From the NCBI GenBank assembly GCA_022562795.1, contig JADFOP010000045.1, forward strand, positions 1 through 17,041: a stretch of 17,041 nucleotides of DNA, read 5' to 3'. The notes under the pieces are model-generated. The model ran no database searches. It had not been told where the DNA came from and saw only the letters and a list, made by a program, of their open reading frames with translations. Source of the stretch: Nitrospinota bacterium (GTDB taxonomy: Bacteria; JADFOP01). Shown piece by piece: positions 79 through 14,004 of the stretch (its first letter is position 1; every line of letters begins with the position of its first letter). A program made the position numbers and the translations under genes.

Positions 79-1062
79 TCAGCGCTTGTTCTCGGGCGCC
101 CAGGTGTTCTCGAGGCGCAGCTCCTTGGCGTTTTCCTCCCACCAGCGTTCCCACTCCATGCGGGTGAAGGCGGCTTTGCGGGGCTCGTCAGCGGAGGGCT
201 GGGCCGTGCTGGTGCGGCCGGTAAGGGCGACGAGCTTCTTCTGCGCGGCGAGGCGCACGGGCGGGCGCGGACTGCCCAGCAGATCGATAAGCACGGGCAG
301 GCCCTGGGGCAGGCCGAGCCACTCCCCGAAGGTGCCGAGGAGGATGAGGCTCGTCGCCACAGCGCCGAGGGCGAAGCGCCTCAAGTAGGTCGCCTCCTCG
401 GCGGCCTGACGCCGCCGTCGGCGGTCCAGGGGATCTTCGTCCGCCTCAAGCAGCGGCGCCGCGCTGTAGCCGGCCCGCTCCACCGCTGCCACCAGGTCTG
501 TGCGCTCCACGACCCCTGGCAGGTAGGCTACCCGGGCCTGGGCCGTGGCGAGGTTGACCTCGGCCTCGACGACGCCCGGCAGGGCCCTCATGGACCGTTC
601 GATCTTAGAGACACACGACGCACAGTGCATCCCTTCGATGGAGAGAACGGTCCGCTCGGCGGCCAGATCGTAGCCGATGGCCTGGATAGCCTCGCGGGCC
701 TTGTGGGTTTCGAAGCGGGCGGGGTCGATCGTGAGATGCGCCCGGCCGACACCGAAGTTGACGCTCGCCGCGTCCACTCCGTCGAGGTTCTCGAGAGTCT
801 CCTCGATGCGCTTGGCGCACGAGGCGCAGTGCATCCCCTCGACGGCAACGGCCAGATGGGCAAGGCCGGGCTCGGCGGCCGGTGCGGCCTGTTGGTGTTC
901 ATCTTGCGACACATCGGTCGCTTCTGCGGTTAGGTAGGCGCCGGGGTCGGATGAGAAAGCCCCCTGGCACGAGGAGGAGCAAAAGGCATAGGTCTCACCG
1001 TCGTGCTCGACGGTGAGGATGCTATTGGAGACCTCCATCCCGCAGACGGGGTCACGTACCAT
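79..1062 (-). CDS. YHS-HMA-HMA protein: Cu+ ATPase N-terminus joined to a HEAT-like tail
   Basis: Counting from the ATG at 1062 (327 aa), residues 1-44 form a YHS-type metal-binding domain (DPVCGMEV, then FCSSSC). Residues 70-133 and 139-202 are two heavy-metal-associated domains, each with GMHCASC (Cys79/82 and Cys147/150). Residues 226-249 resemble the first helix of a P1B copper ATPase. The remaining transmembrane, actuator, DKTG and ATP-binding domains are absent. After about residue 250 the sequence becomes HEAT-like (LIDLLGSPRPPVR...ALTG), then a W-rich charged end (WERWWEENAKEL). It therefore cannot pump; it could at most bind or deliver metal. The frame could begin at a GTG (1092), but AGGAGG lies only about 1 nt from it. 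The ATG has GAGAGAG upstream and places the YHS domain at residue 1. It is the last gene of the CsoR operon. A 9-bp direct repeat marks the junction, so deletion, recombination or misassembly are all possible. Confidence 0.75.
   Translation of the reverse strand: MVRDPVCGMEVSNSILTVEHDGETYAFCSSSCQGAFSSDPGAYLTAEATDVSQDEHQQAAPAAEPGLAHLAVAVEGMHCASCAKRIEETLENLDGVDAASVNFGVGRAHLTIDPARFETHKAREAIQAIGYDLAAERTVLSIEGMHCASCVSKIERSMRALPGVVEAEVNLATAQARVAYLPGVVERTDLVAAVERAGYSAAPLLEADEDPLDRRRRRQAAEEATYLRRFALGAVATSLILLGTFGEWLGLPQGLPVLIDLLGSPRPPVRLAAQKKLVALTGRTSTAQPSADEPRKAAFTRMEWERWWEENAKELRLENTWAPENKR
295..315. repeat. 9-bp direct repeat at the ATPase/HEAT junction
   Basis: GGGCAGGCC occurs at 295-303 and again at 307-315, 12 nt apart. 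On the coding (minus) strand both copies read Gly-Leu-Pro, residues 250-252 and 254-256. This is exactly where copper-ATPase similarity stops and HEAT-like similarity starts. Short homology of this kind fits either illegitimate recombination or an assembler joining two sequences. Confidence 0.6.
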
Positions 1063-1109
1063 GAGGTTTCTCTCTCTCGTCGGGGGCAGCACCCCTCCTG
1101 GGTGTAGTC

Positions 1110-1262: not shown

Positions 1263-1733
1263 CTATCCGAAGCGCCGGTCGATGGCCTGCTGAACCTCAT
1301 CGGGACAGAGGCCATCGCCGACCATCTCTGCGGCCATCTCCGCCTCGGTGAGGCAGACGTTGCAGTTGGCCGCGTGGGTGTCGGCGTAGCATGAAAGTAG
1401 GCTCTTGTGGCCCATGTTCTCCTTGCAGCGGCAGTAACAGTAGAGCCGGTCCAAAACGGCCGGTATCGCCTTGGCCGTAGCGTAGGCCGTACGGACCCGG
1501 CCAACAAAGAAGGACGATGGCAAAACAGAACGCAGCTCGGCCAGTCCGACCTCCTCCAGCGAGCAATTGGCTGCGGCAGCTTGAAGCTCGGCCGGGCTGG
1601 GTTGTCTCGCATAGAAGTAGTAGCCGACAGCGGCGGCTAGGATGAGGAAAGCGCCGACGACCGGAGTAAACCACTTCTTTAGGCGGCGCCTGGCAACGCC
1701 TGTCCTGGCCTTGGCCTTTTTCTTCTTGCCCAT
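1263..1733 (-). CDS. PCYCGC-motif-like membrane-anchored Cys-rich protein
   Basis: This 156-aa protein has a very basic N-terminus (GKKKKAKAR, RRRLKK) followed by one membrane helix at about residues 25-42, so the rest should lie outside the cytoplasm. The C-terminal half carries LYCYCRC (Cys99, 101, 103), SCYADTH (Cys115, His120) and NCNVC (Cys124, 127), with a further Cys143. This spacing matches the PCYCGC family (PF13798-like), which I recall as secreted or lipid-anchored Cys-rich proteins without a defined biochemical role; here PCYCGC reads LYCYCRC. The dense thiols and the CsoR operon suggest binding of Cu(I) or another soft metal, which is inference. The ATG start is supported by AGGAGG 10 nt upstream. 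Confidence 0.75.
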   Translation of the reverse strand: MGKKKKAKARTGVARRRLKKWFTPVVGAFLILAAAVGYYFYARQPSPAELQAAAANCSLEEVGLAELRSVLPSSFFVGRVRTAYATAKAIPAVLDRLYCYCRCKENMGHKSLLSCYADTHAANCNVCLTEAEMAAEMVGDGLCPDEVQQAIDRRFG

Positions 1734-1837: not shown

Positions 1838-2029
1838 CTACCGCCGCTTTGCTTTCACTCCCTCCTCAATCTCTTGGCTCTCTTCCCGACGAGGCAGCTC
1901 GTCGGCCCCGCCGTGCTCATCAGAACTTTCACCACGGCGATGTTGATGTCCTCCGCAGCAGCCCATCCCGCTTCTGTGCATGAACCAGAAAAGACCCACG
2001 AGCAATACAATCCATATCCAGTTATCCAT
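1838..2029 (-). CDS. tiny one-TM protein with a CC/His-rich tail
   Basis: A 63-aa protein beginning MDNWIWIVLL: one hydrophobic helix (about residues 4-17), then HRSGMGCCGGHQH and a charged hydrophilic tail rich in E, D, R and K. The ATG at 2029 is preferred over the upstream GTG at 2038. AAGGAGG lies about 10 nt before the ATG but almost touches the GTG. The vicinal cysteines followed by GHQH form a plausible soft-metal site next to the membrane. Similar short Cys/His-tailed membrane proteins accompany copper and mercury genes elsewhere, but I cannot name a family firmly. It lies between the possible 22-aa peptide and the PCYCGC-like gene. Confidence 0.6.
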   Translation of the reverse strand: MDNWIWIVLLVGLFWFMHRSGMGCCGGHQHRRGESSDEHGGADELPRREESQEIEEGVKAKRR

Positions 2030-2052
2030 CTCCTTCACCCCTCCTTGGTAAT

Positions 2053-2068
2053 GTCCCTATATTAGGAC
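2053..2068. promoter_or_regulatory. imperfect palindrome containing a TAATAT -10-like element
   Basis: GTCC-CTATATTA-GGAC is palindromic at 12 of 16 positions. On the minus strand it includes TAATAT, a possible -10 for the 63-aa gene, but no acceptable -35 lies 16-18 nt upstream. It could also be a small operator. Confidence 0.2.
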
Positions 2069-2191
2069 TCATTGTTCTTCCCGTTTAATGCTACAAGCCC
2101 TCTTGTGCCGGTTGCCTGACCCCCTTCATCGAACGCTGGTGTTCCCATCATCTGGAACAAGGGTTTGTTGGTTAAGGTGGGCAGTTTTGCG

Positions 2192-2260
2192 TCATGCCCA
2201 GGACGGGTGGTGGCAGCCGTCCTTACAGTGGGCCACCCGTGGGATCATGAATCGTCTCAT
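2192..2260 (-). CDS. possible 22-residue His/Cys peptide (micro-ORF)
   Basis: An ATG at 2260-2258 opens a 22-codon frame ending in TGA (2194-2192). GGAGG (within AAAGGAGG) sits 7 nt upstream, as good a ribosome-binding site as any in the window. The peptide has a basic start (MRRF) and the cluster HCKDGCHH at residues 11-18, two Cys and three His within eight residues, a spacing suited to a metal site. It lies in the 264-nt gap between the YncE-like and 63-aa genes, in the same direction as the operon. It may be a metal-binding peptide or a regulatory leader peptide. Its size means the frame could be chance; the ribosome-binding site and metal-ligand composition are the only support. Confidence 0.4.
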   Translation of the reverse strand: MRRFMIPRVAHCKDGCHHPSWA

Positions 2261-2287
2261 CACATATCCTCCTTTCCTTTCTAAGCC

Positions 2288-2311
2288 CCTCGGCTACTCC
2301 TTTTGCCGAGG
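2288..2311. repeat. hairpin spanning the stop codon of the YncE-like gene
   Basis: CCTCGGC (2288-2294) and GCCGAGG (2305-2311) form a perfect 7-bp inverted repeat with a 10-nt loop containing the stop codon of the YncE-like gene. No T run follows on the minus strand, so it is unlikely to be an intrinsic terminator. It could stabilise the upstream mRNA or set the level of the genes beyond. Confidence 0.4.
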
Positions 2312-3379
2312 CAGCGGTCCTCCGGCTCTGAAGTCCCCTTTCCCCCCATGTCGGCCGATGGGGAGGACGACCGTGGTCTCATGGGGCTCGGGCCAAAGGG
2401 GGATGCTTGTTTGGACCGTCAAGGTCTCGGGCTCCAGCACCCAGATTTTGCCCAGCTTTTCGTCGTTCACGTAGATGCGCTTGCCGTCGGGTGTCACGGT
2501 CAGGTGGCCCGGACCCTTACCGAGGGGTTTCATCCGCACCACTTTCCGGCTGTGAAGGTCAATAGCCGCGACCGTTTTCCCGCCGCGGCTCGCCACGTAG
2601 AGAACCTTCCCGTCGCGCGAGAGTCCCAGGCCATGGGGCCCCTGGGCCACAGGGATGCGAGCCACCTCTTTTCTCACCTCCAGGTCCACCACCGAGACGT
2701 CGTTGGAGAAGGCGTTCGAGACGTAAAGCCATCTGCCCGCCCCATCAATGGTCAAATGATCAGGTCCGGCACCAAGCGGAACCGTGGCGACGACTTCGAA
2801 GGTGTTGCCATCGATTACCGAGAGGGTGTCGACGCCCTTGTTGGTTACGTAAATGACCCCACCATTAGGGGAAGTCACGATGGAGTTGGCTCTCTTCCCC
2901 GTCGGGACGTGCTTGATGACTCGGCGGCTCGGGATGTCGATGACGGCAATCCCTCCTCGGGCGGGCACGCTGACGTAGGCGTGATTCCCCTGGGGGTTGA
3001 CGAAGGCGTGGTGGCTGTCGCCCCCTACATCGAGGCGGGCCAACGTCTGGAAGGTTTTGGTGTCGAGGATAGCCACCCGGATCGGTACAGGCGAGGAGTT
3101 AGCCTTGAGCTTCCGGCTGGTGGTGACCAGGTAACGCCCGTCAGGGGTGGCCGCCACCCCATGTGGATTCCACCCAGCCGCCAGGGTACCCATGACTTGG
3201 CCCGTGGCAATGTCGATGGCCGCAACGTTATGCGACGGCCCCATGGCCACGTAGGCTATCCCTTTGGATAGCTTTGAAGCGGGAACCTCGTTGTTGGAGT
3301 CATTGGCCTGAAGGGAACGAACCCCGACAAGGCCAAAGAGCCCTACCATCATCATCACGACATACCAGCGCACTCTCAT
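2294..3379 (-). CDS. secreted YncE/YVTN-type beta-propeller protein
   Basis: A 361-aa protein with a signal peptide (MRVRWYVVMMM..., likely cut after SLQA near residue 24). Repeated propeller blades of the YVTN/cytochrome-D1-like class follow: IAYVAMGPSHNVAAID, HAYVSVPARGGIAVID, VIYVTNKGVDTLSVID, WLYVSNAFSNDVSVVD and VLYVASRGGKTVAAID. About seven blades fill the mature length. No haem or PQQ ligand motif is evident. Family members are periplasmic propellers of mostly unknown function. The ATG at 3379 is chosen over one at 3394: GGAGGT lies about 8 nt before it, and it starts 1 nt after the upstream stop codon, whereas the 3394 start has no ribosome-binding site. It is probably co-translated with the upstream secreted protein and may work with it in the periplasm on metals. 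Confidence 0.85.
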   Translation of the reverse strand: MRVRWYVVMMMVGLFGLVGVRSLQANDSNNEVPASKLSKGIAYVAMGPSHNVAAIDIATGQVMGTLAAGWNPHGVAATPDGRYLVTTSRKLKANSSPVPIRVAILDTKTFQTLARLDVGGDSHHAFVNPQGNHAYVSVPARGGIAVIDIPSRRVIKHVPTGKRANSIVTSPNGGVIYVTNKGVDTLSVIDGNTFEVVATVPLGAGPDHLTIDGAGRWLYVSNAFSNDVSVVDLEVRKEVARIPVAQGPHGLGLSRDGKVLYVASRGGKTVAAIDLHSRKVVRMKPLGKGPGHLTVTPDGKRIYVNDEKLGKIWVLEPETLTVQTSIPLWPEPHETTVVLPIGRHGGKGDFRAGGPLPRQKE

Positions 3380-3380
3380 C

Positions 3381-3986
3381 CTACTTACCTCCATACATTG
3401 CGAGCCTTGAATTTCCGTCGGGCCTTGGGCCCAAATTTTCTGTCTTGGTTAGGGTGAGGTCCCACCGGAAGCGCCTCTCGGGGACACCTCCCACCTCCTG
3501 GATCACAACCTCGATGAAGCGGGTTTCGGGGCGGGTGACAGGCGAGCCGTCCGGCCTCGTTGCTGAAAACTTCAGGACGCCGTATCGGTGGTGACCGCCA
3601 CCGCCGGGGTTGAACCATCCTGAAGGCTCGATGCTTAGGCCCCCGTTGGTTTCCAGGCGGCTCAGGCGGCCCATATCGTACTGCTCAAGGTCGACCGAAT
3701 GGGTGTTCATGCGCACCTCGAATTTGAGTTCCTCAGCCGCTGAGACATCCTCAGGTTTCAGCCAGCTTACATCGATGGTGATAGCCCCCCCGGAGTGGCT
3801 ACGGGTTACCTTCTTAGAAGTCCCAGAGGCCTCTGCAGCCATTCTAAGTCCGGTGACCAAAGCCCTTGCTGGTACGGCTGAGACTCCCTTAGGACCATCC
3901 GCATTGGGGGCCCATGCGAAAGCCACCGAGCCCACAATCAAAACCATGCCCGCGGCCGCTACGGGTACCGCGAACCATGTTTTCAT
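3381..3986 (-). CDS. secreted protein of unknown function (THSVDL / GHHRYGVL)
   Basis: A 201-aa protein with a clear signal peptide (MKTWFAVPVAAAGMVLIVGS..., cleavage near residue 24-26). The mature part looks all-beta. Short conserved-looking segments include EVRMNTHSVDL, GGGGHHRYGVLKF and a final strand-rich section (RFIEVVIQEVGG, RRFRWDL). I recall similar small secreted proteins with THS-DL and GHHR-GVL motifs in other bacteria, but not with an assigned function. The HH pair could bind metal. AAGGAGG about 7 nt before the ATG is a strong ribosome-binding site. The gene ends 1 nt before the start of the YncE-like propeller, so the two are probably made together and exported together. Confidence 0.75.
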   Translation of the reverse strand: MKTWFAVPVAAAGMVLIVGSVAFAWAPNADGPKGVSAVPARALVTGLRMAAEASGTSKKVTRSHSGGAITIDVSWLKPEDVSAAEELKFEVRMNTHSVDLEQYDMGRLSRLETNGGLSIEPSGWFNPGGGGHHRYGVLKFSATRPDGSPVTRPETRFIEVVIQEVGGVPERRFRWDLTLTKTENLGPRPDGNSRLAMYGGK

Positions 3987-4019
3987 TGCTCTTTCCTCCT
4001 TTTTCCCTCTTCGGGCCTC

Positions 4020-4307
4020 TCATACTTTGAGAGGCGGTCGGCCGCCCGCTGGGGAAAATCGGCGGTTAAAAAAGTTGAACAGTGGGACGAAGACCACGGC
4101 CGCGTAGACGCCATAGAGAAAGGTCTCGGCTAACCCGATTAAGAACCCCTGCAACGTCAACCACCGAAAGCCAGGCAGCAGGGGGCTCCACCACTGGTAC
4201 ATAGCGGCACTGGGCACCAGAAGGTCCCAGAGGACGCAAATCAAATAGCTGATGGCAAGAAACGATCCAGTGGCGTATGCCACAGTGCGAATTGAGAGGG
4301 GTTTCAT
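4020..4307 (-). CDS. DUF5676-like small membrane protein
   Basis: A 95-aa integral membrane protein with two hydrophobic segments (about residues 9-31 and 47-80). Features resembling the DUF5676 family include SYLICVLWDLL, AMYQWWSPLLPGFRWL and a FLYGVYAAVVFVPLFNFF end. No function is established for the family, which I recall as frequent beside heavy-metal ATPases and DUF2933 proteins. The start ATG overlaps the TGA of the upstream NfeD-like gene (ATGA, 4 nt), implying translational coupling. Confidence 0.75.
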   Translation of the reverse strand: MKPLSIRTVAYATGSFLAISYLICVLWDLLVPSAAMYQWWSPLLPGFRWLTLQGFLIGLAETFLYGVYAAVVFVPLFNFFNRRFSPAGGRPPLKV

Positions 4308-4750
4308 GACTTTTCCTCCTTATGCTCTAGGCCGACCGGAACCACATGGGCCATTCTTTTTTCCTGGCAGCTGCAGGTTGTCTGGCAGCCGCAGGACTTA
4401 ACCTCGGACTTGCCTGATCTCGCTCGTTGGACGAGAAGCGTCATCCCGTGCATTCCCACGATGGTGGCACGATCGCCTGAGGCGAGAGGCTCCGGGGAGC
4501 GGGCCTTCCAAAGGACGTTCTGATACCGAACACGGCCCTGGCCCTGGAAGCTCTCTGCAACCACGATTTCCCTTCCCAACATGGACTCCTTCCCGGAGGC
4601 CACCGGCTGTCGGTGGGCGCGGTAGATGAGACCGTAGAGGACGACCGAGACCACCAAGACGACTCCGTAGAGCGGAGCCGCCCAGGCCATTGGCATTACG
4701 TAGAAGAGACCGATCCCTAGCAGGGGCATCATCAAGATCAGGTGACACAC
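4304..4750 (-). CDS. NfeD-like membrane protein with CxC...CxC tail
   Basis: A 148-aa protein with an N-terminal hydrophobic region of probably two helices (residues 3-41). A cytoplasmic domain resembling the NfeD C-terminal OB fold follows (residues 57-109: LGREIVVAESFQGQGRVRY, LASGDRATIVGMHGMTLLV). Known NfeD proteins partner with stomatin/flotillin-type proteins in membrane quality control; no stomatin gene is present here. The unusual part is the last 30 residues, with CGC at 120-122 and CSC at 126-128. This four-Cys cluster is not part of a normal NfeD domain and fits a metal site. The GTG at 4750 is chosen because GAGGG lies about 7 nt upstream; ATGs at 4732 and 4729 are alternatives. 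It overlaps the next gene by 4 nt. Confidence 0.75.
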   Translation of the reverse strand: MCHLILMMPLLGIGLFYVMPMAWAAPLYGVVLVVSVVLYGLIYRAHRQPVASGKESMLGREIVVAESFQGQGRVRYQNVLWKARSPEPLASGDRATIVGMHGMTLLVQRARSGKSEVKSCGCQTTCSCQEKRMAHVVPVGLEHKEEKS

Positions 4751-4754
4751 GGCC

Positions 4755-5405
4755 CTACCCTCGATGTTCGGCCGCGACGGGGAGACGCCCCAGGGGCAAG
4801 AAGGCCGGTACGAGCTTCTTGTATCGCCGATATTCCTCCCCGAACGCGGCCTCCAGTTCGGCCTCCTCCCGGCGCGCGAGCCGGTAATACATCAGAAACA
4901 ATCCAGGGGCCATGAGGACCGTGGCGATGGTCGGCCACTGAATCAAGAACCCGAGCACTAAGACCAACAACCCTGCATACTGAGGGTGGCGGACCGTTCC
5001 GTAGATTCCGTCAGTGACCAATTCGCCCCTGGCCCGGTGAATTTTGCGCCAGCCGCGCCCCATCATTGTCAAGCCTACCAGGATAAGCCCATTGCTCACC
5101 ACCATGACCAGGGCCCACGCAGCAACGCTCCCTCCCATCAGGACGGCCACCAAATGGCCGTTCTTGTGTGAGAAGGGGTCCAGAACAGGATAGGAACGGC
5201 CCAGGATGGAAGTGAGGATATAGATGGTCAAGGGGAAGCCGTACATTTCGGTGAAAAGCGCTACCAGGAATGCCGTCATCAGGCCCATGGAGCGCCACTC
5301 CCGCTTTCTCATTGGCTTCAAGAAGCCGACAACGAATAGGCCGAATAGGAGCACGTTGAAGGCAACCGCGGCCCAGAGACCGTACGTATTGGTGTTTATC
5401 TCCAT
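4755..5405 (-). CDS. isoprenylcysteine/PEMT-type membrane methyltransferase
   Basis: A 216-aa, about five-helix membrane protein. The C-terminal third holds the signature of the ICMT/PEMT family of SAM-dependent methyltransferases: DGIYGTVRHPQYAGL (residues 132-146, with the RHPxY core), then YYRLARREEAELEAAFG (Glu180/181), which together form the SAM-binding site. Bacterial members have varied or unknown substrates; some sit in metal-resistance operons. The substrate cannot be inferred here. The ATG at 5405 is chosen over one at 5435: GAGGT lies 5 nt before it, and it falls 7 nt after the upstream stop, whereas the 5435 start lies inside the upstream gene. Confidence 0.85.
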   Translation of the reverse strand: MEINTNTYGLWAAVAFNVLLFGLFVVGFLKPMRKREWRSMGLMTAFLVALFTEMYGFPLTIYILTSILGRSYPVLDPFSHKNGHLVAVLMGGSVAAWALVMVVSNGLILVGLTMMGRGWRKIHRARGELVTDGIYGTVRHPQYAGLLVLVLGFLIQWPTIATVLMAPGLFLMYYRLARREEAELEAAFGEEYRRYKKLVPAFLPLGRLPVAAEHRG

Positions 5406-5412
5406 GGCGACC

Positions 5413-5652
5413 TCACTTACCCCCGTCCATTTCATCCCCGTGTCCGTGATGGCCCCGGCGCATCATAAAGAAGTGAATGAGGGGGCAGAGAAGGAAAACC
5501 GCCAGGATGCCGATCCCGTTAAGCGACACTCCGCTGTAGGCGATGACGCCGATTAAGACGACTGGGACGAGGCAGCATACAATCATCCAAAAGCCGTGCG
5601 AGAGGCTGGCGGCCCGTTTCGCCTCATGGGTCTCGTTGTGGGTCGCCTTCAT
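5413..5652 (-). CDS. DUF2933-like small membrane protein
   Basis: A 79-aa protein with a polar, His-containing N-terminus (MKATHNETHEAKR), a hydrophobic stretch of two short helices (FWMIVCCLVPVVLIGVIAYSG and IGILAVFLLCPLIHFFMM), and a RRGHHGHGDEMDGG tail. The CPLxHFFMxR-GHHGH ending is typical of DUF2933-like proteins found in metal-resistance loci. Cys-Cys in the first helix, CPL in the second and the His-rich tail could handle soft metals; this is inference. The ATG at 5652 is preferred to a TTG four codons upstream because GGAGG stands 6 nt before the ATG and overlaps the TTG region. Confidence 0.75.
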   Translation of the reverse strand: MKATHNETHEAKRAASLSHGFWMIVCCLVPVVLIGVIAYSGVSLNGIGILAVFLLCPLIHFFMMRRGHHGHGDEMDGGK

Positions 5653-5738
5653 GGGTTCCTCCAAGGTTCGATCTTTTACTGCAACAAGGGGAAGAAAAGG
5701 TTCTCGATGGAACGCAGCCGTCGAGTTCGAGGAGGAGA

Positions 5739-6047
5739 CTACTGAGGCGGTTTAGTGATGGGGTCGATAAGGGGTGGAACAGCGAGGAGGAAGGGGGCAA
5801 GAGATAGGATGCTGGGCAGATACACCAGGGGAATTGTAAGCGCCGCGCCGACGGCCATCGTTGTGACCGAGGCGCAAATACCGTGGGAGATGCCCATCTC
5901 ATCGTGGGTGGCGTGGTGCGTGCCGCAGAGCAGAGGAGCTAGCAAGAACAGCCCTGCCAGGAGAGCCAGAACCATCATGTTGGAACGAGTCCCGCCCCTG
6001 AAGGGAAACGCTCTCCGTATCACTGATCTTGGCCTTGAGGGCATCAT
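5739..6047 (-). CDS. two-TM protein with His/Cys-rich loop
   Basis: A 102-aa protein I do not recognise as a named family. A basic N-terminus (RPRSVIRRAFPFRGG) precedes helix 1 (about 24-41) and a long second hydrophobic region (about 60-93). Between them is a loop with Cys41, HH (44-45), His48, Asp/Glu49-50, Met51, His55 and Cys58, a dense set of potential metal ligands. With the basic end inside, the loop would face the periplasm. The start codon is one of two consecutive ATGs overlapping the csoR stop codon (ATGATG, TGA shared), so translation is coupled to csoR. GAGG lies just upstream. Confidence 0.65.
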   Translation of the reverse strand: MMPSRPRSVIRRAFPFRGGTRSNMMVLALLAGLFLLAPLLCGTHHATHDEMGISHGICASVTTMAVGAALTIPLVYLPSILSLAPFLLAVPPLIDPITKPPQ

Positions 6048-6322
6048 CGCCTCTGGGTGGAGAAATATCTCATTACTTCGTCTATCTTTCGTCGCTGGTC
6101 ATCTGTGTGACCGTGCTTGATGGCGTCGGTGACGCAGGTCTCCAGGTGCTGGCGAAGCATAAGGCGCTCGACCTGCCGAAGGGCTCCCTCCACGGAGTTG
6201 ATCTGGGTGAGGATGTCAATACAGTACCGGTGCTCCTCGACCATCCGCTGGAGGCCACGCACTTGGCCCTCGATCTTCCTGAGGCGCCTGACTAAATCTT
6301 TAGACCCTTGCTCGTCTAACAT
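6044..6322 (-). CDS. csoR: CsoR-family metal-sensing repressor
   Basis: This 92-aa all-alpha protein has the CsoR/RcnR/FrmR (DUF156) pattern: RRLRKIEGQVRGLQRMVEE, YCIDILTQ, then ALRQVERLMLRQHLETCV. Cys34, His59 and Cys63 match the C-H-C ligand set that defines Cu(I)-sensing CsoR, so copper is the likely inducer, though other thiophilic metals or reactive sulfur cannot be excluded. In known members, metal binding releases the protein from DNA. The gene is first in its operon. A strong promoter lies 55-83 nt upstream of the start codon with a perfect palindrome beside it, so autoregulation is expected. The ATG has a G-rich site (GGGGGA) close upstream. Confidence 0.92.
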   Translation of the reverse strand: MLDEQGSKDLVRRLRKIEGQVRGLQRMVEEHRYCIDILTQINSVEGALRQVERLMLRQHLETCVTDAIKHGHTDDQRRKIDEVMRYFSTQRR

Positions 6323-6351
6323 TGTTCCCCCGCTAAAATCCCTACCGAATC

Positions 6352-6374
6352 TTTATACCCCGCTAGGGTATAAA
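6352..6374. promoter_or_regulatory. probable CsoR operator palindrome
   Basis: TTTATACCC (6352-6360) and GGGTATAAA (6366-6374) are perfect 9-bp inverted arms around CGCTA. An AT-flanked run of C facing a run of G (TATACCC...GGGTATA) is the known style of CsoR operators. It begins 3 nt after the -10 box and covers the expected start of transcription, so a bound repressor would block the promoter. Confidence 0.8.
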
Positions 6375-6376
6375 TA

Positions 6377-6405
6377 AATATACGCCCTTTAGGAGAGGAT
6401 GTCAA
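6377..6405 (-). promoter_or_regulatory. sigma70 promoter of the csoR operon
   Basis: On the minus strand, TTGACA (6405-6400) is separated by exactly 17 nt from TATATT (6382-6377). Transcription should start near 6370, inside the palindrome at 6352-6374, giving a leader of about 48 nt before csoR. It is the best promoter match I found in the window. Confidence 0.8.
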
Positions 6406-6831: not shown

Positions 6832-7584
6832 TCACGGCTCGTTTTGAAAGCAGACGGTGCATTGGGGGGTCTCGACCATGTCGGGACGCCGCGCCGCCAC
6901 CTCTTCAAGCGAATCGGTGTTTAGGTTGCCGAGCTTGTGGGGGGCAATTTTTGTGAGCGGGGGACAGGTGTATATGCTCCCGTCCATCCAGAGGCTTAGG
7001 GAGTTGGAGCCGTCGCAGCCGGCAAACATCCTGCCGACCGGCGGCATCTCCTTGGTCACCTTCTTTCCCCTGAGCGTGGGAAATAGCCCCAGGTTCTTGT
7101 CGCCGCTTCCGTCCATTGCGACGAGCGACGTGGTGAATCCCCGGGCCTTGAGCTCCTTCAAGGTCGCCAAGGGGAAGAGCATCTCCGGATCCTCGGGGAG
7201 CATCTCTTTATAGGAATCGGCGTGGTAGCCGGTCCAGCTTACACGAACCTCCATCCGGTCTTTGTCCGCAATAGCCTCCAGCCGGTCCATTGCCTCCTCG
7301 TCGAAGAGCGTGCCGTTGGTGAAGAAGACCACCTCTCCCAGGCCCTGGAGGAACTCCACGATTTCGAAGAACTCGGGGTGCATGGTCGGCTCCCCGCCAG
7401 TTACGTAAAACCGCTCCACACCGAGCGCGAGGGCCTCCTTTGCGATGCGCTGGATGTCGGCTAGCTTGAGAATTGGGGCCTTCACCTTCGGGCCCGAGTT
7501 AGTTAAGCAGTGCGCGCACTCGAGGTTACACTGTTGGTTAATTGTGAACCAGAAGGCTTGAAGCGGTTGTTTGACCGATCCCAT
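6832..7584 (-). CDS. radical SAM protein with short SPASM/twitch-like end
   Basis: A 250-aa radical SAM enzyme. CNLECAHC (Cys19, 23, 26) binds the SAM-cleaving [4Fe-4S] cluster, and GGEP (63-66) is the usual SAM-contact motif. Cys190, Cys207 (SIYTCPPL) and CTVC (242-245) could hold one auxiliary cluster; LGNLNTDSLEEV resembles the loop before the last cysteines of SPASM/twitch proteins. The substrate is unknown. An in-frame TTG at 7587 is possible, but the ATG at 7584 is chosen because GAGGAGG sits 7 nt before it. The ATG shares one base with the upstream stop (TGATG), so translation is coupled to the CesA-like glycosyltransferase. It is the last gene of the operon. Confidence 0.85.
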   Translation of the reverse strand: MGSVKQPLQAFWFTINQQCNLECAHCLTNSGPKVKAPILKLADIQRIAKEALALGVERFYVTGGEPTMHPEFFEIVEFLQGLGEVVFFTNGTLFDEEAMDRLEAIADKDRMEVRVSWTGYHADSYKEMLPEDPEMLFPLATLKELKARGFTTSLVAMDGSGDKNLGLFPTLRGKKVTKEMPPVGRMFAGCDGSNSLSLWMDGSIYTCPPLTKIAPHKLGNLNTDSLEEVAARRPDMVETPQCTVCFQNEP

Positions 7585-9197
7585 CAAAGAACCTCCTCTA
7601 CGGGCAGGGAAGCAGAGCCGGTCGCCACGGAGGGCTCCTCCGCAGCCGCCTCCAGGCCGACCCCTGCCTGGCCGGGGCCTTGTCGGGCGGCAGCGTTCTG
7701 TTCCCTGCGCTGGTTAATTCCTAGTAGGGCTACGTAGAAAAAGCCGGATGCGTATATTACCATAAAGGGCCACACAAATAGTTTCCAATGAATGACGAAA
7801 AGCCCCAGGGCCAAGAGGCTGTAAAACCCCAGGAATAGCTCGGCGACGGCCGTCCGGTCGAAGGCGGTGGCGTACCGCTTGCCCGCCCAAGCATCCCCCC
7901 TGCGCTCGACCTTGAACTTAGGCGTACGGACGAACTCCGAAGAGTGACCAACGAGGGCTTCCAGGACGGCACGGCTGTTGCTGAGCGCGATGCCCGTCCC
8001 CAGGCAGACCAGCAGCGGGAGGTAGCGCCACCGGGCCCGGCCCTCGGGGCCGAACTGGCCCAGGGCGTAGAAGTAGAGGGAAGACGGCCCGAAGCTGGCC
8101 AGGGCGAGCAGTGTCACAGTCACCAGTAGGGGCGCCCAGGAGGAGAAGTAAAAACCTCGTGCCAGCAGGGGCACGGAGAGGATCACCACTGAGAGCATGA
8201 GGGGGTGGACCATGTAGTGGGTCAGGTGAAGGGTTGCCTGCACCTTGGTGAAAAGGGGCAAGTGGGAGCGCCAAATCTTCGGCAGTAGGAGCTTGGCCGT
8301 CTGGATGGAGCCCTTGGCCCACCGTCGCTGTTGGGTTTTGAACCCTTGAAGCTGTACGGGGAGCTCGGCGGGACAGACGACCTCCGGGAGGTAGAGCATC
8401 TTCCAACCCTTGAGCTGGGCCCGGTAGCTCAAATCGAGGTCTTCAGTCAGGGTGCGGTCCAACCAGCCCCCAGCTTCCTCGATGGCCCTCGCTCTCCAGA
8501 TGCCCGCCGTTCCGTTGAAGTTCATCAGCAATCCCGACCAGGCCCGCGCCCCCTGCTCGACGCCGAAGTGGCCGTCTATGCCTATGGCCTGAGCCTGGGT
8601 CAGGAGCGAGTAGTCGCGGTTGATATGGCCCCAGCGGGTCTGAATCATGCCGACACACTCGTCTTCGAAAAAGGGAACGGTGCGGAGGAGAAAATCCTTC
8701 GGAATCGTGAAGTCGGCGTCAAAGATGGCGACAAACTCTCCCCTGGCTACCCGGAGCCCCTCTTTTAGGGCCCCCGCTTTATAGCCAACCCGGTTGGTCC
8801 GGTGGATGTGGTGGATTTCAAGGCCCTCAGAACGATAGCGGTCTACGAGGGCAGCAACGATCGGGGTGGTCTCGTCGGTCGAGTCGTCGAGCACCTGGAT
8901 CTCCAGCAGGTGGCGCGGGTAATCGAGAGCGGCCACGTTCATTATGAGGCGCTCCACGACGTACTGCTCGTTGTAGATGGGAAGCTGGACCGTTACCGTC
9001 GGCAACCAGCTTTCGGCGGAGCCCCTGCTCCAGAAGGCCTCCGTGGTAGCCCTCGCTTGAGCGGTCCACGCCTCCCGGTGCCGCCTGTGTAACATCATCA
9101 GGACGTAGCAATTGACCCCGTAGCTAAAGAGCCCTACCAGGGAGGCAAGATAGACCACCATCAAAACGGTATCCCACACTGTCAACGGGGCGCTCAC
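7584..9197 (-). CDS. processive GT2 glycosyltransferase (CesA/CslA-like)
   Basis: A 537-aa membrane glycosyltransferase. One N-terminal helix (about 8-36) is followed by a cytoplasmic GT-A domain with the full motif set of cellulose-synthase-like enzymes: DDSTD (104-108), DAD (160-162), TED (251-253) and QQRRW (289-293). At least four C-terminal helices follow (between about 310 and 480). The QxxRW motif indicates processive chain synthesis from a nucleotide sugar. The arrangement resembles bacterial CslA/glucan-mannan synthases more than the larger BcsA, and no PilZ domain is present. The hydrophilic tail after about 487 is Ala/Glu-rich and probably unstructured. The GTG start overlaps the upstream stop by 4 nt (GTGA). 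Sugar and linkage cannot be read from sequence. Confidence 0.88.
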   Translation of the reverse strand: MSAPLTVWDTVLMVVYLASLVGLFSYGVNCYVLMMLHRRHREAWTAQARATTEAFWSRGSAESWLPTVTVQLPIYNEQYVVERLIMNVAALDYPRHLLEIQVLDDSTDETTPIVAALVDRYRSEGLEIHHIHRTNRVGYKAGALKEGLRVARGEFVAIFDADFTIPKDFLLRTVPFFEDECVGMIQTRWGHINRDYSLLTQAQAIGIDGHFGVEQGARAWSGLLMNFNGTAGIWRARAIEEAGGWLDRTLTEDLDLSYRAQLKGWKMLYLPEVVCPAELPVQLQGFKTQQRRWAKGSIQTAKLLLPKIWRSHLPLFTKVQATLHLTHYMVHPLMLSVVILSVPLLARGFYFSSWAPLLVTVTLLALASFGPSSLYFYALGQFGPEGRARWRYLPLLVCLGTGIALSNSRAVLEALVGHSSEFVRTPKFKVERRGDAWAGKRYATAFDRTAVAELFLGFYSLLALGLFVIHWKLFVWPFMVIYASGFFYVALLGINQRREQNAAARQGPGQAGVGLEAAAEEPSVATGSASLPVEEVL

Positions 9198-10612
9198 GAG
9201 GGGCTCTCCCTATACACGGGGGAGCGGAACCCGGTCGGGGCCATTAGAGCCGATCGACTATGGTCCCACTGCCGCCCCAAGCTCCGGCGACGCATGAGCT
9301 CCCATGTCAAAAGGGCGAGGATGGGGAGAAATTCCACCAGACGCACGACCATGGGCAGGACCTCTGGCCTCTGGGCGTACTTCAGATACGAAAGGGTAAG
9401 TGCCCAGCTCGCTGCGAAGAGGGTAACAGACGGTGAGATAGTTCCCAGGACGAGAAGCCAGAGGAGATACCATGGGTGGAGTGCGGGCGTCACGACGAAC
9501 AGGGCGAACCCTCCAAGGAGGAGCCCCCGCTTGGCGGCTTGGTCCACCGTTCCATCGTCCCGTCGGGAGATAAGCCACGCCAGCCCCGCCAAGCCGAGAG
9601 ACGCCGCCGCCAGATATATTAGGTTGAACTGCTCCCCGCCCCCTCCCGATAGAGATCGGGCGAAAAGGCGCACCCCCTGGTTGAACTCCTCATATTGATT
9701 GAAGAGGTAGGTGGGCAGGAAGCCGAGCACCGTCGAGCCGAGGCCGATGTAGGGTAGGTAGCCGAGCCCGACCACCGCCGCCCAGGTCAGGGGCATCCGG
9801 CGGTCTCCTCGCCTGTAAAAGGCCAGCACGAGGAGGGCGGGGTAGAGTTTTGTCAGGGTGGCGAGGCCAATGAGGGCTCCGACCAGAGACCGTCTTCCGG
9901 CCCGGTGGGCCAGGAAGGCTCCCACCAAGAAGGGCAGGTAGAGCGGGTCGAGGTGACCGCTGTGGGCCACCTCTACAATTACGAGGGGGTTCCACGCGTA
10001 GAGGACGACCCGATGGAGCGGGACCCCCATCTGTCCCAAGAGGACCATCAGGAGACCGATGGTCGTCAGGTCCGCCATTACCATCATCGCCTTCGTGCCG
10101 GTTACGCTATCGCCGACGAGCTTGTAGATGAGCCGAAAGCCGGCCTGAGCGCCTGGCGGGTAGATGGTCCGGGCTCCCTTGCGATTGATATGGGGGTAGA
10201 TGGTCTTGTCCCGAAGCTCCGCGAGGGCCGGGTCGCCGGGGGGATGGGCCCACGGGCTCAGCCCGTGGGCCTGAACCCGGCCGTCCCAGATGTAGCGGTA
10301 CATGTCACTGGAGAGGGAGGGTGGAGAAGCCACCAGGACCATCCGAAAGAGGACGGCCATGCAGAATAGAAGGACCAGGAGACCGGGGGTGTCTTCCATG
10401 CGCCAAAGCAACGCCACGGCCGCCCCGTAGAGAAGGAAGAGGATGGAAGAGACCATGACGAAGGCGCTGAAGGGCGAGGCCACGCCCAGGCTGGCCGCCA
10501 CACCGGGCAAGCCCTCTCCCAGCCCAATCCAGCCGTAGAGCCCAATGCTCACGAGCCCCAGCCCAACGATGGGCAGGCCGGGTTTCAACCAGCGGGTCTC
10601 TCGAACGCTCAT
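9194..10612 (-). CDS. GT87/DUF2029-like integral membrane glycosyltransferase
   Basis: A 472-aa protein with about ten to twelve hydrophobic helices. The first outer loop carries SSDMYRYIWDGRVQAHGLSPW (residues 101-121), matching the acidic catalytic loop of GT-C enzymes of the GT87/polyprenyl-phosphate mannosyltransferase type. A TIYPPGAQ segment (149-156) and NPLVIVEVAHSGHLDPL also fit that group. Such enzymes transfer a sugar from a polyprenyl-phosphate donor on the outer membrane face. This pairs naturally with the DPM1-like synthase at the head of the operon. The ATG at 10612 overlaps the upstream stop (ATGA) and has GGAGG 4-5 nt before it; the frame opens further upstream, but that would overlap the preceding gene. 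Confidence 0.85.
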   Translation of the reverse strand: MSVRETRWLKPGLPIVGLGLVSIGLYGWIGLGEGLPGVAASLGVASPFSAFVMVSSILFLLYGAAVALLWRMEDTPGLLVLLFCMAVLFRMVLVASPPSLSSDMYRYIWDGRVQAHGLSPWAHPPGDPALAELRDKTIYPHINRKGARTIYPPGAQAGFRLIYKLVGDSVTGTKAMMVMADLTTIGLLMVLLGQMGVPLHRVVLYAWNPLVIVEVAHSGHLDPLYLPFLVGAFLAHRAGRRSLVGALIGLATLTKLYPALLVLAFYRRGDRRMPLTWAAVVGLGYLPYIGLGSTVLGFLPTYLFNQYEEFNQGVRLFARSLSGGGGEQFNLIYLAAASLGLAGLAWLISRRDDGTVDQAAKRGLLLGGFALFVVTPALHPWYLLWLLVLGTISPSVTLFAASWALTLSYLKYAQRPEVLPMVVRLVEFLPILALLTWELMRRRSLGRQWDHSRSALMAPTGFRSPVYRESPS

Positions 10613-11325
10613 AGGGCCTCCAGCCTCCCTTCGGCGCGAAACTGCTGGAGGCAGGCCCACGTGGTGGGCGCGAGCCCGTCCGACCCCACCTCTTCGAGCT
10701 CGTTGCAGAGACGGCGCAAGTCTTCCCGGTCGTCCACGTCGTACCAGGGCTCAAGGAGCGCCGGGCGGAGGCGCGCCTCGGCGGCTCGCTTAAGCGTCGT
10801 TGGGAGTACCTCCGGCGTGCTCCACGGAATGTCGTCAAATAGGTGTTTTTGAGGCTTGGTGAGCCCGATGAGATAGTAGCCCCCATCGTCGGCTGGCCCC
10901 AACACTACGTCGACGCCGGGCTCCTCCAGCCGGGCGAAAGCGTCGGCCACCAGGCCCATAGGGAGTGTGGGGCTGTCGCTGTTGACGGCCAGCGCAAACT
11001 CAAGGCCTTCGGAGAGAAGGAGGAAGTGGAAGATGTTGTAGAGCCGCTCCCCAAGGTGGGCGCCCCGTTGCGGTATTAAGGGGCAACCTTCGGGCAGCAA
11101 CCCGCGAAGCCGCTCGCCCTCGCCCGCGGGCGTGTATGCCACCCGGCAGAGGCCGGGGAAGGCGGCCTCGACGGCCTCGACCATGTCTATAAGAAAGCAG
11201 GCGTAGAGCCGGGCTGAGGATTCCTCGTCCAAGAGCGGGAGCAGGCGGGTTTTCACCTGGCCCGGGATAGGGACCTTGGCCATGAGCACACACGCTCTAC
11301 GGCTCCCCCCAAGAGGGTTATCCAT
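10609..11325 (-). CDS. DUF2064 transferase (rSAM/selenodomain-associated type 1)
   Basis: A 238-aa soluble protein with a nucleotidyltransferase-like GT-A fold. Motifs are MAKVPIPGQVKTRL (15-28), the metal-site-like NSDSPTLP (115-122) and GPADDGGYYLIGL (143-155). These match the DUF2064/TIGR04282 family, named rSAM/selenodomain-associated transferase 1 for its habit of occurring near radical SAM and selenium-related genes. Its reaction is not established; a role in activating or transferring a sugar nucleotide is inferred. The ATG at 11325 is preferred to a TTG at 11349 although neither has a strong ribosome-binding site; it starts 68 nt after the upstream stop, the widest gap in the operon. 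Its TGA overlaps the next ATG. Confidence 0.85.
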   Translation of the reverse strand: MDNPLGGSRRACVLMAKVPIPGQVKTRLLPLLDEESSARLYACFLIDMVEAVEAAFPGLCRVAYTPAGEGERLRGLLPEGCPLIPQRGAHLGERLYNIFHFLLLSEGLEFALAVNSDSPTLPMGLVADAFARLEEPGVDVVLGPADDGGYYLIGLTKPQKHLFDDIPWSTPEVLPTTLKRAAEARLRPALLEPWYDVDDREDLRRLCNELEEVGSDGLAPTTWACLQQFRAEGRLEAL

Positions 11326-11393
11326 CGGATGCTTTCCCGTAGTCGTCAAGAGGTCTCTGGCTCCCTCGTCGGCGGCGTATCAGCAGCCGATCC

Positions 11394-12419
11394 TTAAAGG
11401 CTCCACTCCACACCGCAGCCCTGGCACGGGGTGGCCGGCTCGGCGCTCATAAGCTGGCTGCGGAACGTCTGGTAGCGCTCGCCGTGCCATATCTCCTCGA
11501 GCGACTGCTCCCGTACGTTGCCCAAGATAATGCTCGGATACTCGTGGAGGGCGACGGCAAACGGGGCGATGCAGCACGGCAAAATATTTCCGTTTGCGGT
11601 CATGTACATGAGGGTGAAGGGCCGCCGGCAGGCCTGCCAGGGGTGAGAGTCATTGGCGCCCTCGATGCTATGCCGGGGGTCGGTGGCCCCGGAGGCTTGA
11701 AAGGCGATTCCGTGTTTGCGGCTAAGCTCTTCGCAGAACCTGAGCAACTCATCCACCTCTCTTTCGTCGGAGCCATGAAGCGAATTGTTCCGGCTCATGA
11801 CACTTCCCTCGGGTCCGCCGTCGGCGTAGACGAGCCTTTGCAAGTAGACCTCATCGGCCCCCACCTCCTCGGCGATACTGAAAAAGGCGGGCATTTCGTG
11901 GATGTTCTCCTTGAGCCCGACCAGCCAGAGCGAGACGCGGGGCAACGAGACCCCGAGGCGCTGCTTGAGCTGGTGGAGCTCCTTTAAGTTCGCAATCAAG
12001 TTGGGGAGCATCGGGAGGCCCCGGATCTGCTCGTACTTTTTCTCGGTCGCGGCGTCCATGGAGACCCGTAGCTCATCCAGTCCCGACTCGATGAGGCTCT
12101 TCTGCCAATCGGGAGTCAAAATGGTTGCGTTGGTGTTGAACAGGACGTAGGTGCCGCGGGCCTTGAGATAGGTGACCATGCGCGGCAGGTCCCGGTTGAG
12201 CATCGGCTCCCCAATGCCGTGGAGGACTGCCCGCTCGAGCGACGAGAGTTGGTCAACCACTTCCCGAAACTCCTCGAAAGTGAGGTCGTGGGCATCCTCC
12301 CTAGTCTCGAAGGTCCTTATGCAGGTCACACATTTTAAATTGCACCGGTTCGTCACCTCGATGTAGAGGCAGGTCGGGGGTATAGGCAGAAGGTTCCTTC
12401 CCTGCGAGGTGGCGGTCAT
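11394..12419 (-). CDS. radical SAM/SPASM domain protein
   Basis: A 341-aa radical SAM enzyme with CNLKCVTC (Cys26, 30, 33) and GIGEP (68-72, in the place of GGEP). Its C-terminal SPASM-like part has Cys264, the pair CC (282-283), LGNVREQSLEEIWHG and CQGC (332-335), enough to ligate an auxiliary [4Fe-4S] cluster. SPASM proteins modify peptides, proteins, or in some cases sugars and other small molecules. No precursor-peptide gene is visible nearby, while the flanking genes are glycosyltransferases, so a glycan or carrier-lipid substrate seems more likely (inference). It starts 7 nt after the upstream GT2 stop codon, with GAGAG close upstream and GGAGG 13 nt upstream of the ATG. Confidence 0.87.
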   Translation of the reverse strand: MTATSQGRNLLPIPPTCLYIEVTNRCNLKCVTCIRTFETREDAHDLTFEEFREVVDQLSSLERAVLHGIGEPMLNRDLPRMVTYLKARGTYVLFNTNATILTPDWQKSLIESGLDELRVSMDAATEKKYEQIRGLPMLPNLIANLKELHQLKQRLGVSLPRVSLWLVGLKENIHEMPAFFSIAEEVGADEVYLQRLVYADGGPEGSVMSRNNSLHGSDEREVDELLRFCEELSRKHGIAFQASGATDPRHSIEGANDSHPWQACRRPFTLMYMTANGNILPCCIAPFAVALHEYPSIILGNVREQSLEEIWHGERYQTFRSQLMSAEPATPCQGCGVEWSL

Positions 12420-12426
12420 CGCTCTC

Positions 12427-13140
12427 TCAATTCCTCCAGGCGTGCCTGAGGGTGGTCGTCAGCATGTACCAGGCCGCCAGGATGGTCCCCCTGACGGTTC
12501 CCGCCACCTTGCTCGTCCCCCCTCGGCGTCGCCGGTATCGGATGGGCACCTCGTGGATGCGGTAGCCGTGCTTGGCCGCCTTTACCACCATCTCCACCGG
12601 CCAGCCGTACGTTCGCTCGGCCATGCCCAGCCTCTCCAAGTCTTTGCGGGCGATGGCCCGCAGGGATGGGATGTCCGTGAGCTGGAGGCCGTAGAGGGCG
12701 CGGATCAGCCTGGTTACGACCCAGTTGCCGAGCCGGGCCTGAGGCGTTAGGGCCCCGGCTTCGCTCCCATGGGCGATACGGGCCCCGAGCACGAGATCGG
12801 CCGTTCCGTTATGGAGAGGATCGAGGATCCGGTAGGCCTCGGCGGGGTCGTCGCTCCCATCTCCGTCGAGAAAGAGCACCACATCGGCTTCCTGAGCAGC
12901 CTGGAGGCCGGCCCAGCATGCGGCGCCGTATCCACGCCGGGGCTCGCCCACCACCCGTGCACCGGCCTGGCGGGCGCGCCCGGCGGTCTCATCGTCAGAC
13001 CCGTTGTCCACCACTACGACATCGCTCAAGCCTGCTTGCATGAGTCCCTCCACGACGGGGCCGATGGCCTCCTCCTCGTTGAGGGCGGGGATGATGGCCG
13101 TCACCCGGAGTCGGCGAGGGCCTGCCTGTGGAATGTCCAT
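12427..13140 (-). CDS. GT2 glycosyltransferase, polyprenyl-phosphate-sugar synthase-like
   Basis: A 237-aa GT-A fold glycosyltransferase: IIPALNEEEAIG near the N-terminus, VVDNGSDD (44-50), EPRRGYGAAC (66-75), the metal-binding DGDGSDD (92-98), then DIPSLRAI, YGWPVEM and RRRRGGTSKVAGTVRG. This is the pattern of DPM1/GT2 enzymes that load a sugar from a nucleotide donor onto polyprenyl phosphate. It lacks the long C-terminal membrane domain of GtrB-like proteins. As the first gene of the operon it would supply the donor for the GT87-like enzyme. Start ATG 13140 has no good Shine-Dalgarno sequence (only GGCTGAGCT upstream), unlike the downstream genes. Confidence 0.87.
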   Translation of the reverse strand: MDIPQAGPRRLRVTAIIPALNEEEAIGPVVEGLMQAGLSDVVVVDNGSDDETAGRARQAGARVVGEPRRGYGAACWAGLQAAQEADVVLFLDGDGSDDPAEAYRILDPLHNGTADLVLGARIAHGSEAGALTPQARLGNWVVTRLIRALYGLQLTDIPSLRAIARKDLERLGMAERTYGWPVEMVVKAAKHGYRIHEVPIRYRRRRGGTSKVAGTVRGTILAAWYMLTTTLRHAWRN

Positions 13141-13475: not shown

Positions 13476-13991
13476 ATGGGCTTATCCTCGCGACTTAATC
13501 CTCCCGCCTTCGGGTTGTTCGCTCTAGCCCTATTCCGCAGCGTCATCGGTCTCATGTGGATCGACATGGCCCTCCAGAAGGCGCCGTGGAAGGGCGAGGA
13601 GTTCGGCTGGCTCTACGGCTGGATTTGGAAGGAGATCAACCACCCGACCTTCGGATGGTACAAGGCGTTTCTGGAAAAGGTGGTCCTGCCGAACTTCACC
13701 TTCTTTGGCTACATGACCTTCTTTACCGAGATTTTTATCGGGCTGAGCTTGCTGACCGGAACCGTTGTGGTTCTCGGCGGCCTGGCCGGCTTCGGGATGC
13801 AGGTCAACATCGCCCTGGGGAGCTTCTCGGTCCCCGGTGAGTGGTATTGGATTTGGCCCTTGCAGATTCTTCCCCACCTGGTCTTTCTGGCGACCAGGGC
13901 CGGTCGGTACTGGGGCCTGGATGGGTGGCTGAGGCCCCGCCTGGCGGACCGTAGGGGGGCCGTCGGGTTGGCGGCCCGCTTGTTCATGTAA
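13476..13991 (+). CDS. DoxX/DoxD-like membrane protein
   Basis: A 171-aa membrane protein with about four hydrophobic segments. RSVIGLMWIDMALQKAPW near the N-terminus, VLPNFTFFGYMTFFTEIFIGLSLLTG and a final PHLVFLATRAGRYWGLDGWL resemble the DoxX family and the small subunit (DoxD) of archaeal thiosulfate:quinone oxidoreductase. No DoxA-type partner is present, and no catalytic residues are established for such stand-alone members, so a redox or quinone-linked role is only a family-level guess. AAGGAGG is 6 nt before the ATG, a near-ideal site. The upstream 135 nt hold AT-rich promoter-like sequence (TATTATAG near 13330) but no clear -35. The propeller lipoprotein gene starts 13 nt downstream. 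Confidence 0.8.
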   Translation: MGLSSRLNPPAFGLFALALFRSVIGLMWIDMALQKAPWKGEEFGWLYGWIWKEINHPTFGWYKAFLEKVVLPNFTFFGYMTFFTEIFIGLSLLTGTVVVLGGLAGFGMQVNIALGSFSVPGEWYWIWPLQILPHLVFLATRAGRYWGLDGWLRPRLADRRGAVGLAARLFM

Positions 13992-14004
13992 TGAGGAGCC
14001 TGGT

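Follow-up and report, generated by a model that had tools for sequence, protein, structure and literature searches.

Clusters that join a CopA P-type ATPase to a cupredoxin, a DUF2933 protein and an ICMT-type methyltransferase have been published from Alteromonas, Vibrio and other genera, where they lie on genomic islands and the copA genes are induced by copper (PMC8478169). The CuZ cluster, for its part, has been described as unique to nitrous oxide (N2O) reductase, NosZ; in clade I NosZ all propeller blades except one give histidine (His) and one blade gives two, for a total of seven (PMC11573801). Here we describe a run of genes headed by csoR on a stretch of 17,041 nucleotides (“the window”) from a Nitrospinota bacterium. 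The window is contig JADFOP010000045.1, or C45, and belongs to a 2.15-Mb genome of 84 contigs that is 97% complete. We read the run, with a probability of roughly 0.55, as a copper operon of CsoR-CopA type that also encodes acceptors of copper in the periplasm, one of which would be a NosZ-like propeller that lacks the CuA domain.

The published merR-copA-cupredoxin-DUF2933-ICMT cluster (PMC8478169) resembles the window in that DUF2933 adjoins ICMT and a CopA P-type ATPase belongs to the cluster. It differs in several respects: in the window CsoR replaces MerR, no cupredoxin family was found among the genes by family scans, and there are additional genes for an NfeD-like protein, a DUF5676 protein, a 66-amino-acid protein, a CYCXC protein and a secreted pair, made up of a propeller and a domain protein designated here as “sec201”. 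Copper clusters of the CopA/DUF2933/ICMT type are already known, and the CuA-less seven-His propeller family is new. A literature search returned nothing relevant on a propeller in a copper operon, on DUF5676 with copper or on CuZ with YVTN propellers, which is weak evidence because subscription journals were not covered.

The seven-histidine propeller family

2294 to 3394, minus strand: predicted secreted seven-bladed propeller of YVTN type, 366 amino acids, with H78, H128, H129, H213, H254, H297 and H338

The propeller is probably exported, as suggested by an N-terminal helix in its AlphaFold2 model (predicted local distance difference test score, pLDDT, of 81). In this model, a strand begins at, or no more than two residues from, each of H78, H213, H254, H297 and H338, H128-H129 stand directly before a strand, and the seven His are distributed over six of the seven blades. 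The chance that these residues carry a multinuclear copper site is, in our judgment, even.

The first five members of the family, mostly from copper-type loci, have the seven His in common. Plasmids were searched using the Indioceanicola propeller as query, which had itself been found through similarity, its His content playing no part. This gave 24 records, and nine loci were read. CopA lies within ~6 kb of the propeller at six of the nine; the loci with no CopA nearby are those of Halomonas (with DUF5676, ICMT and YHS), Roseibium (with cupredoxin and copper-binding genes) and Martelella (with cytochrome c maturation genes). When 15 members were aligned, the invariant residues other than the start Met were G52, H78, G79, H128, H129, V183, H213, H254, H297 and H338. 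Seven of these ten internal positions are therefore His, at an identity to the window protein of ~23-34%. None of the seven is present in the generic YVTN controls, which came from Streptomyces, Rhodococcus and S. clavuligerus, and partial sets occur in a Cryobacterium propeller (2/7) and in a more distant propeller from genome G155 (4/7). Culturable hosts of seven-His propellers include Ruegeria pomeroyi DSS-3, whose copy is WP_011242141.1, Hoeflea and Halomonas. The propellers form a family, unrecognised so far, whose genes lie in copper clusters; its hosts are uncultured bacteria, Alphaproteobacteria and Halomonas. Proteobacterial seven-His propellers (loci L106 and L111-L118) have an extra His-rich, EHAAHH-like insert separating blade 1 from blade 2, which the window copy does not have.

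By sequence and fold together, the best match to the window propeller is the YncE/YVTN group of surface-layer propellers (1l0q). It is set apart from this group by the seven His, absent from the generic controls, and by a score under the YncE cut-off (NF052280, 73.2 versus 400 bits). Much of the list of structural matches obtained with VIA-align, including ranks near its top, is taken up by NosZ entries (Z ~38) and thiocyanate dehydrogenase (Z ~36). The latter is a seven-bladed enzyme with a copper site, and its gene context differs from that of the window.

Comparison with nitrous oxide reductase

His positions of the propeller and of clade III L-NosZ (NF052460) were compared by pairwise profile alignment with hhalign, which gave a probability of 99.2% across 289 columns. 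Of the propeller His, five fall in the same columns as L-NosZ His. Taken blade by blade, the His-bearing motifs of an L-NosZ member above the family cut-off (from genome G172) are DLH, VHH, none, NPH, GPLH, GH and EPH, and those of the window propeller are NPH, SHH, none, PDH, GPH, GH and EPH. Both thus follow the order H, HH, none, H, H, H, H. The window protein nevertheless scores 139.2 bits against the L-NosZ cut-off of 700, sits in a copA operon, contains no cysteine (Cys), and has no C-terminal CuA cupredoxin domain, ending soon after the last blade in the model. A true L-NosZ was ruled out by the score and the missing CuA. The absence of CuA also makes copper storage or oxidation, rather than N2O reduction, the most likely role.

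With the CuZ domain of clade I NosZ (M. nauticus, PMC11573801) the propeller shares seven His, one HH pair and one ligand-free blade (Z ~38). The two differ in that one more blade separates the empty blade from the HH pair in clade I NosZ, identity is below 20%, and CuA is missing from the window protein. Genome G172 encodes a clade III L-NosZ over the cut-off and genome G206 one just under it (607 bits; loci L088 and L089), and both genomes also encode sec201 domains.

The secreted partner

3381 to 3986, minus strand: predicted secreted sec201 domain protein, 201 amino acids, motif THSVDL...GGGHHRxG, overlapping the propeller gene by 14 nucleotides

The sec201 domain matched no Pfam family. 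Its residues H96, H132 and H133 are invariant in all 11 members, and the sec201-propeller pair was also found on contig C20 of genome G050 and contig C226 of genome G033. CopA lies no more than ~7 kb from sec201 in 5 of 8 non-seed loci, for which the probability by chance is <1e-6 even if each genome had four copies of CopA. Fusions of sec201 to a Metal_resist domain (PF13801, genome G172) and to a membrane protein with the motif LACC(A/S)H...LP (genome G305) point the same way. The latter protein (L079 7318-8265 and L043 12847-13404), which has no Pfam family, stands alone beside sec201 in genome G139 and is a candidate for a new copper-island membrane protein. In genome G206 the sec201 domain is fused to a heme-binding-like N-terminal part. 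A scan of assembled genome contigs for sec201 gave one locus only (Candidatus Tectomicrobia JACPUC01), and none was found in plasmids. From its conserved residues and neighbours, sec201 would be an unnamed secreted family and a second candidate copper protein.

Control region and extent of the operon

6044 to 6322, minus strand: csoR, copper-type repressor (PF02583, 101.8 versus 22.8 bits; C34-H59-C63)
6352 to 6374, no strand assigned: probable CsoR operator from a palindrome search, a perfect 9+5+9 inverted repeat, TTTATACCC-CGCTA-GGGTATAAA
6377 to 6405, minus strand: sigma70-like promoter TTGACA-17-TATATT, 11 of 12 consensus matches

The genome encodes no other protein of the CsoR family. 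The Cys-X24-His-X3-Cys triad of CsoR consists of C34, H59 and C63, and triads with the spacing of CsoR are a mark of Cu(I) sensors. Promoters of similar quality are expected by chance across the region, though the location of this one, immediately 5′ of csoR, is apt. No palindrome as perfect as that beside csoR was expected in 200 shuffles, and its 7+5+7 core occurs as a single exact copy in the genome. It is the probable operator of CsoR.

All genes from csoR through CYCXC lie on the minus strand and follow the order of a first-pass annotation made from the window alone, and each of its named genes was recovered by open reading frame and family scans. Proteins passing Pfam or NCBIfam cut-offs were CsoR, DUF2933, PEMT, ICMT, NfeD, DUF5676, PCYCGC and CYCXC. 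Starting at csoR, the genes up to that for the propeller are separated by −4, 74, −23, 4, −4, 33 and −14 nucleotides, which is operon-like spacing; the three gaps after that measure 255, 104 and 170 nucleotides. Together, the promoter, palindrome and spacing indicate that the run exceeds a chance arrangement. The first-pass annotation had placed the run at 2020 to 6405, but the run continues past ~2020 through the 66-amino-acid gene and the CYCXC gene to the YHS-HMA-HMA N-terminus of CopA.

CopA divided between two contigs

305 to 1092, minus strand: N-terminal third of copA (YHS-HMA-HMA and first transmembrane segment, TM1), 73% identity to residues 1-269 of CopA from genome G001
79 to 304, minus strand: in-frame foreign tail after TM1 of CopA, HEAT-like by eye, probable assembly chimera; similarity to CopA stops at LPQG

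The genome contains one E1-E2 ATPase match, which has a CPC motif, lies at the extreme end of contig C1 and runs off that contig. Genome G001, from the same genus, encodes an intact CopA of 911 amino acids. Its residues 1-269 align to the window piece, the similarity being firm as far as residue ~260, and its residues 265-886 align to the C1 piece at 91% identity. Because these ranges abut, the ends of C45 and C1 fall in a single gene, no more than about five codons apart. This is most simply read as an intact copA divided by an assembly break between C45 and C1, with a chimeric tip on the former, although a real rearrangement may have interrupted the gene instead. No second copy of the foreign tail was found in the genome. 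At the right end of C45 (15925-16977, minus strand), an open reading frame for a PAS-domain sensor runs in frame into the apparent C-terminal ~110 amino acids of selenophosphate synthase (SelD). This fusion is also a probable assembly chimera, and the presence of a second one on the contig supports assembly error at copA.

A pump-less operon, proposed in the first-pass annotation, was discarded once the two CopA parts had been matched to the intact gene of G001, since the pump is a downstream gene of the same run. For the same reason, the suggestion of small binding proteins as a replacement for an exporter encoded elsewhere lost its support. The run is very probably a copper operon whose CopA works.

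Other genes of the run and their relatives

5739 to 6047, minus strand: predicted membrane protein of 102 amino acids with a Cys/His-rich CGTHHATHDEMGISHGIC loop, an orphan, overlapping csoR by 4 nucleotides
5413 to 5664, minus strand: DUF2933 small membrane protein with an RRGHHGHG tail (PF11666, 29.9 versus 21 bits)
4755 to 5435, minus strand: ICMT/PEMT-type membrane methyltransferase (PF04191 and PF04140 over cut-off)
4304 to 4750, minus strand: short NfeD-like protein with a CGC...CSC tail (PF01957, 50.9 bits)
4020 to 4307, minus strand: DUF5676 protein with two transmembrane segments (PF18926, 38.2 versus 27.6 bits)
1838 to 2038, minus strand: 66-amino-acid protein (GCCGGHQH) with a single transmembrane segment and MHRSGMGCCGGHQH; relatives in copper clusters
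1263 to 1733, minus strand: CYCXC family (seleno)protein, PCYCGC-like (NF041379, 113.4 versus 90 bits; PF13798, 44.3 versus 25 bits)

The 102-amino-acid orphan matched no family in Pfam and NCBIfam scans and had no relative in a scan of assembled genome contigs. The DUF2933 gene (5664-5413) directly precedes the ICMT gene (5435-4755), and metal-resistance plasmids from Methylocystis, Sinorhizobium and Nostoc carry such pairs, either adjoining CopA or together with DUF5676. ICMT homologues lie near CopA in most loci from metagenome-assembled genomes that are long enough to judge. Relatives of the 66-amino-acid GCCGGHQH protein were found in copper clusters of genomes G172, G139 and G050 and beside sec201 in G033; short NfeD relatives were found in G033, G050 and G363, the last beside CopA. 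Sub-modules of the run are conserved across genomes and the whole set is not.

These relatives, clustered with CopA elsewhere, agree with the view in the first-pass annotation that CsoR controls a copper system of the envelope in which several small proteins are candidate ligands. That most of the products contain tight Cys/His clusters, as was also stated, is somewhat overstated, since the DUF5676, ICMT and secreted-pair proteins have a low overall Cys/His content (1-3%). The secreted pair itself proved to be co-encoded as noted, but its most unusual element, the seven His of the propeller, had been missed. A system with the full set had been thought undescribed. CopA-cupredoxin-DUF2933-ICMT, however, is published, and DUF5676 is added on many metal-resistance plasmids. 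As for gene order, its restriction to this assembly had been named as a refuting result; this applies in part, since the complete order was found only here and other genomes keep the sub-modules.

Outside the run, 6832-13140 (minus strand) encodes radical SAM/SPASM proteins, glycosyltransferases and DUF2064 in an apparently separate upstream cluster. The region 13476-15594 (plus strand) encodes a DoxD-like membrane protein followed by a secreted propeller of PQQ type (non-YVTN).

Alternative explanations

Several observations weigh against a copper operon with a NosZ-like acceptor. The full gene order was found in one assembly only, and the 255-nucleotide gap 3′ of the propeller gene may mean that there are two transcripts. 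The top VIA-align match to the propeller model is the YVTN surface-layer propeller 1l0q (Z 44.5), which has no known copper role, and two of the seven His are off by one residue in the alignment to L-NosZ. The structure model of sec201, made from a two-row alignment, is poor (pLDDT 44). NosL and NosD mature the CuZ of NosZ; neither was found in this genome, in which NosF and NosY were not searched, and the propeller may therefore lack a [4Cu:2S] cluster. The missing maturation genes also fit an ordinary copper-resistance cluster in which the propeller serves as a scaffold of general use in the periplasm or binds a single metal ion or zinc, as AztD does, with no multicopper cluster. Generic YVTN/YncE propellers are abundant, and the family of AztD, a zinc metallochaperone propeller, gives the window protein a weak score (38 versus 400). 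We consider this explanation unlikely, though it should be kept in mind, because seven invariant His in the NosZ blade pattern, with one HH and one empty blade, persist at such low identity and are absent from the controls.

Less probable still is a role in redox catalysis, either as a cuprous oxidase or as an enzyme like NosZ or thiocyanate dehydrogenase, in which electrons would be taken or given through cytochrome c or Rieske neighbours instead of CuA. Proteobacterial copies of the propeller do adjoin cytochrome c, Rieske and multicopper oxidase genes, a Rieske gene lies near the G363 and G050 C20 loci, and the nearest copper-enzyme folds are NosZ and thiocyanate dehydrogenase. In the window, however, the propeller has no adjacent cytochrome or Rieske gene, no CuA domain and a score under the L-NosZ cut-off. 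CsoR-family sensors differ in metal, and DUF2933 and YHS occur in metal islands other than those for copper, which would allow a response to another thiophilic metal (Ag, Hg or Ni). Against this, and making it very improbable, are the C-H-C triad with CsoR spacing, the CPC-type CopA and the copper genes around relatives. Envelope buffering by small ligand proteins in place of an exporter deserves marginally less credence again: the window alone contains only part of a pump, but the remainder of CopA begins where C1 ends, and G001, from the same genus, has the gene intact.

Proposed mechanism and implications

For the favored CsoR-CopA operon with periplasmic acceptors, events could proceed as follows. 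A rise in cytoplasmic Cu(I) would remove CsoR from the palindrome at 6352-6374, and the operon would be transcribed. CopA, supplied via its own YHS and HMA domains, would export Cu(I) to the periplasm as expected for its family, and the secreted pair could accept the exported copper. In the propeller, the seven His around the central channel might hold a multinuclear cluster, as those of clade III NosZ do in its CuZ domain, and sec201 may add another, three-His site or dock to the propeller. The 102-amino-acid orphan, DUF2933, the 66-amino-acid CCGGHQH protein, CYCXC and the ICMT, NfeD and DUF5676 set may serve in copper handling or buffering or in envelope repair.

For readers of genomes, the locus is a caution that a contig break can mimic a missing pump. 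Its wider interest lies in a tentative proposal, to which we give somewhat less than even odds: CuA-less relatives of the NosZ propeller in copper operons and on plasmids would bear a CuZ-like seven-His cluster for copper storage or oxidation, and sec201 would be a new secreted copper protein working with the propeller. In that case N2O reductase would not be alone in its CuZ chemistry, and NosZ may derive from such a propeller by gain of CuA. If so, copper-resistance islands would gain a new class of periplasmic copper protein, and a widespread CuA-less, seven-His family beside copper pumps would make the origin and assembly of CuZ testable outside denitrification.

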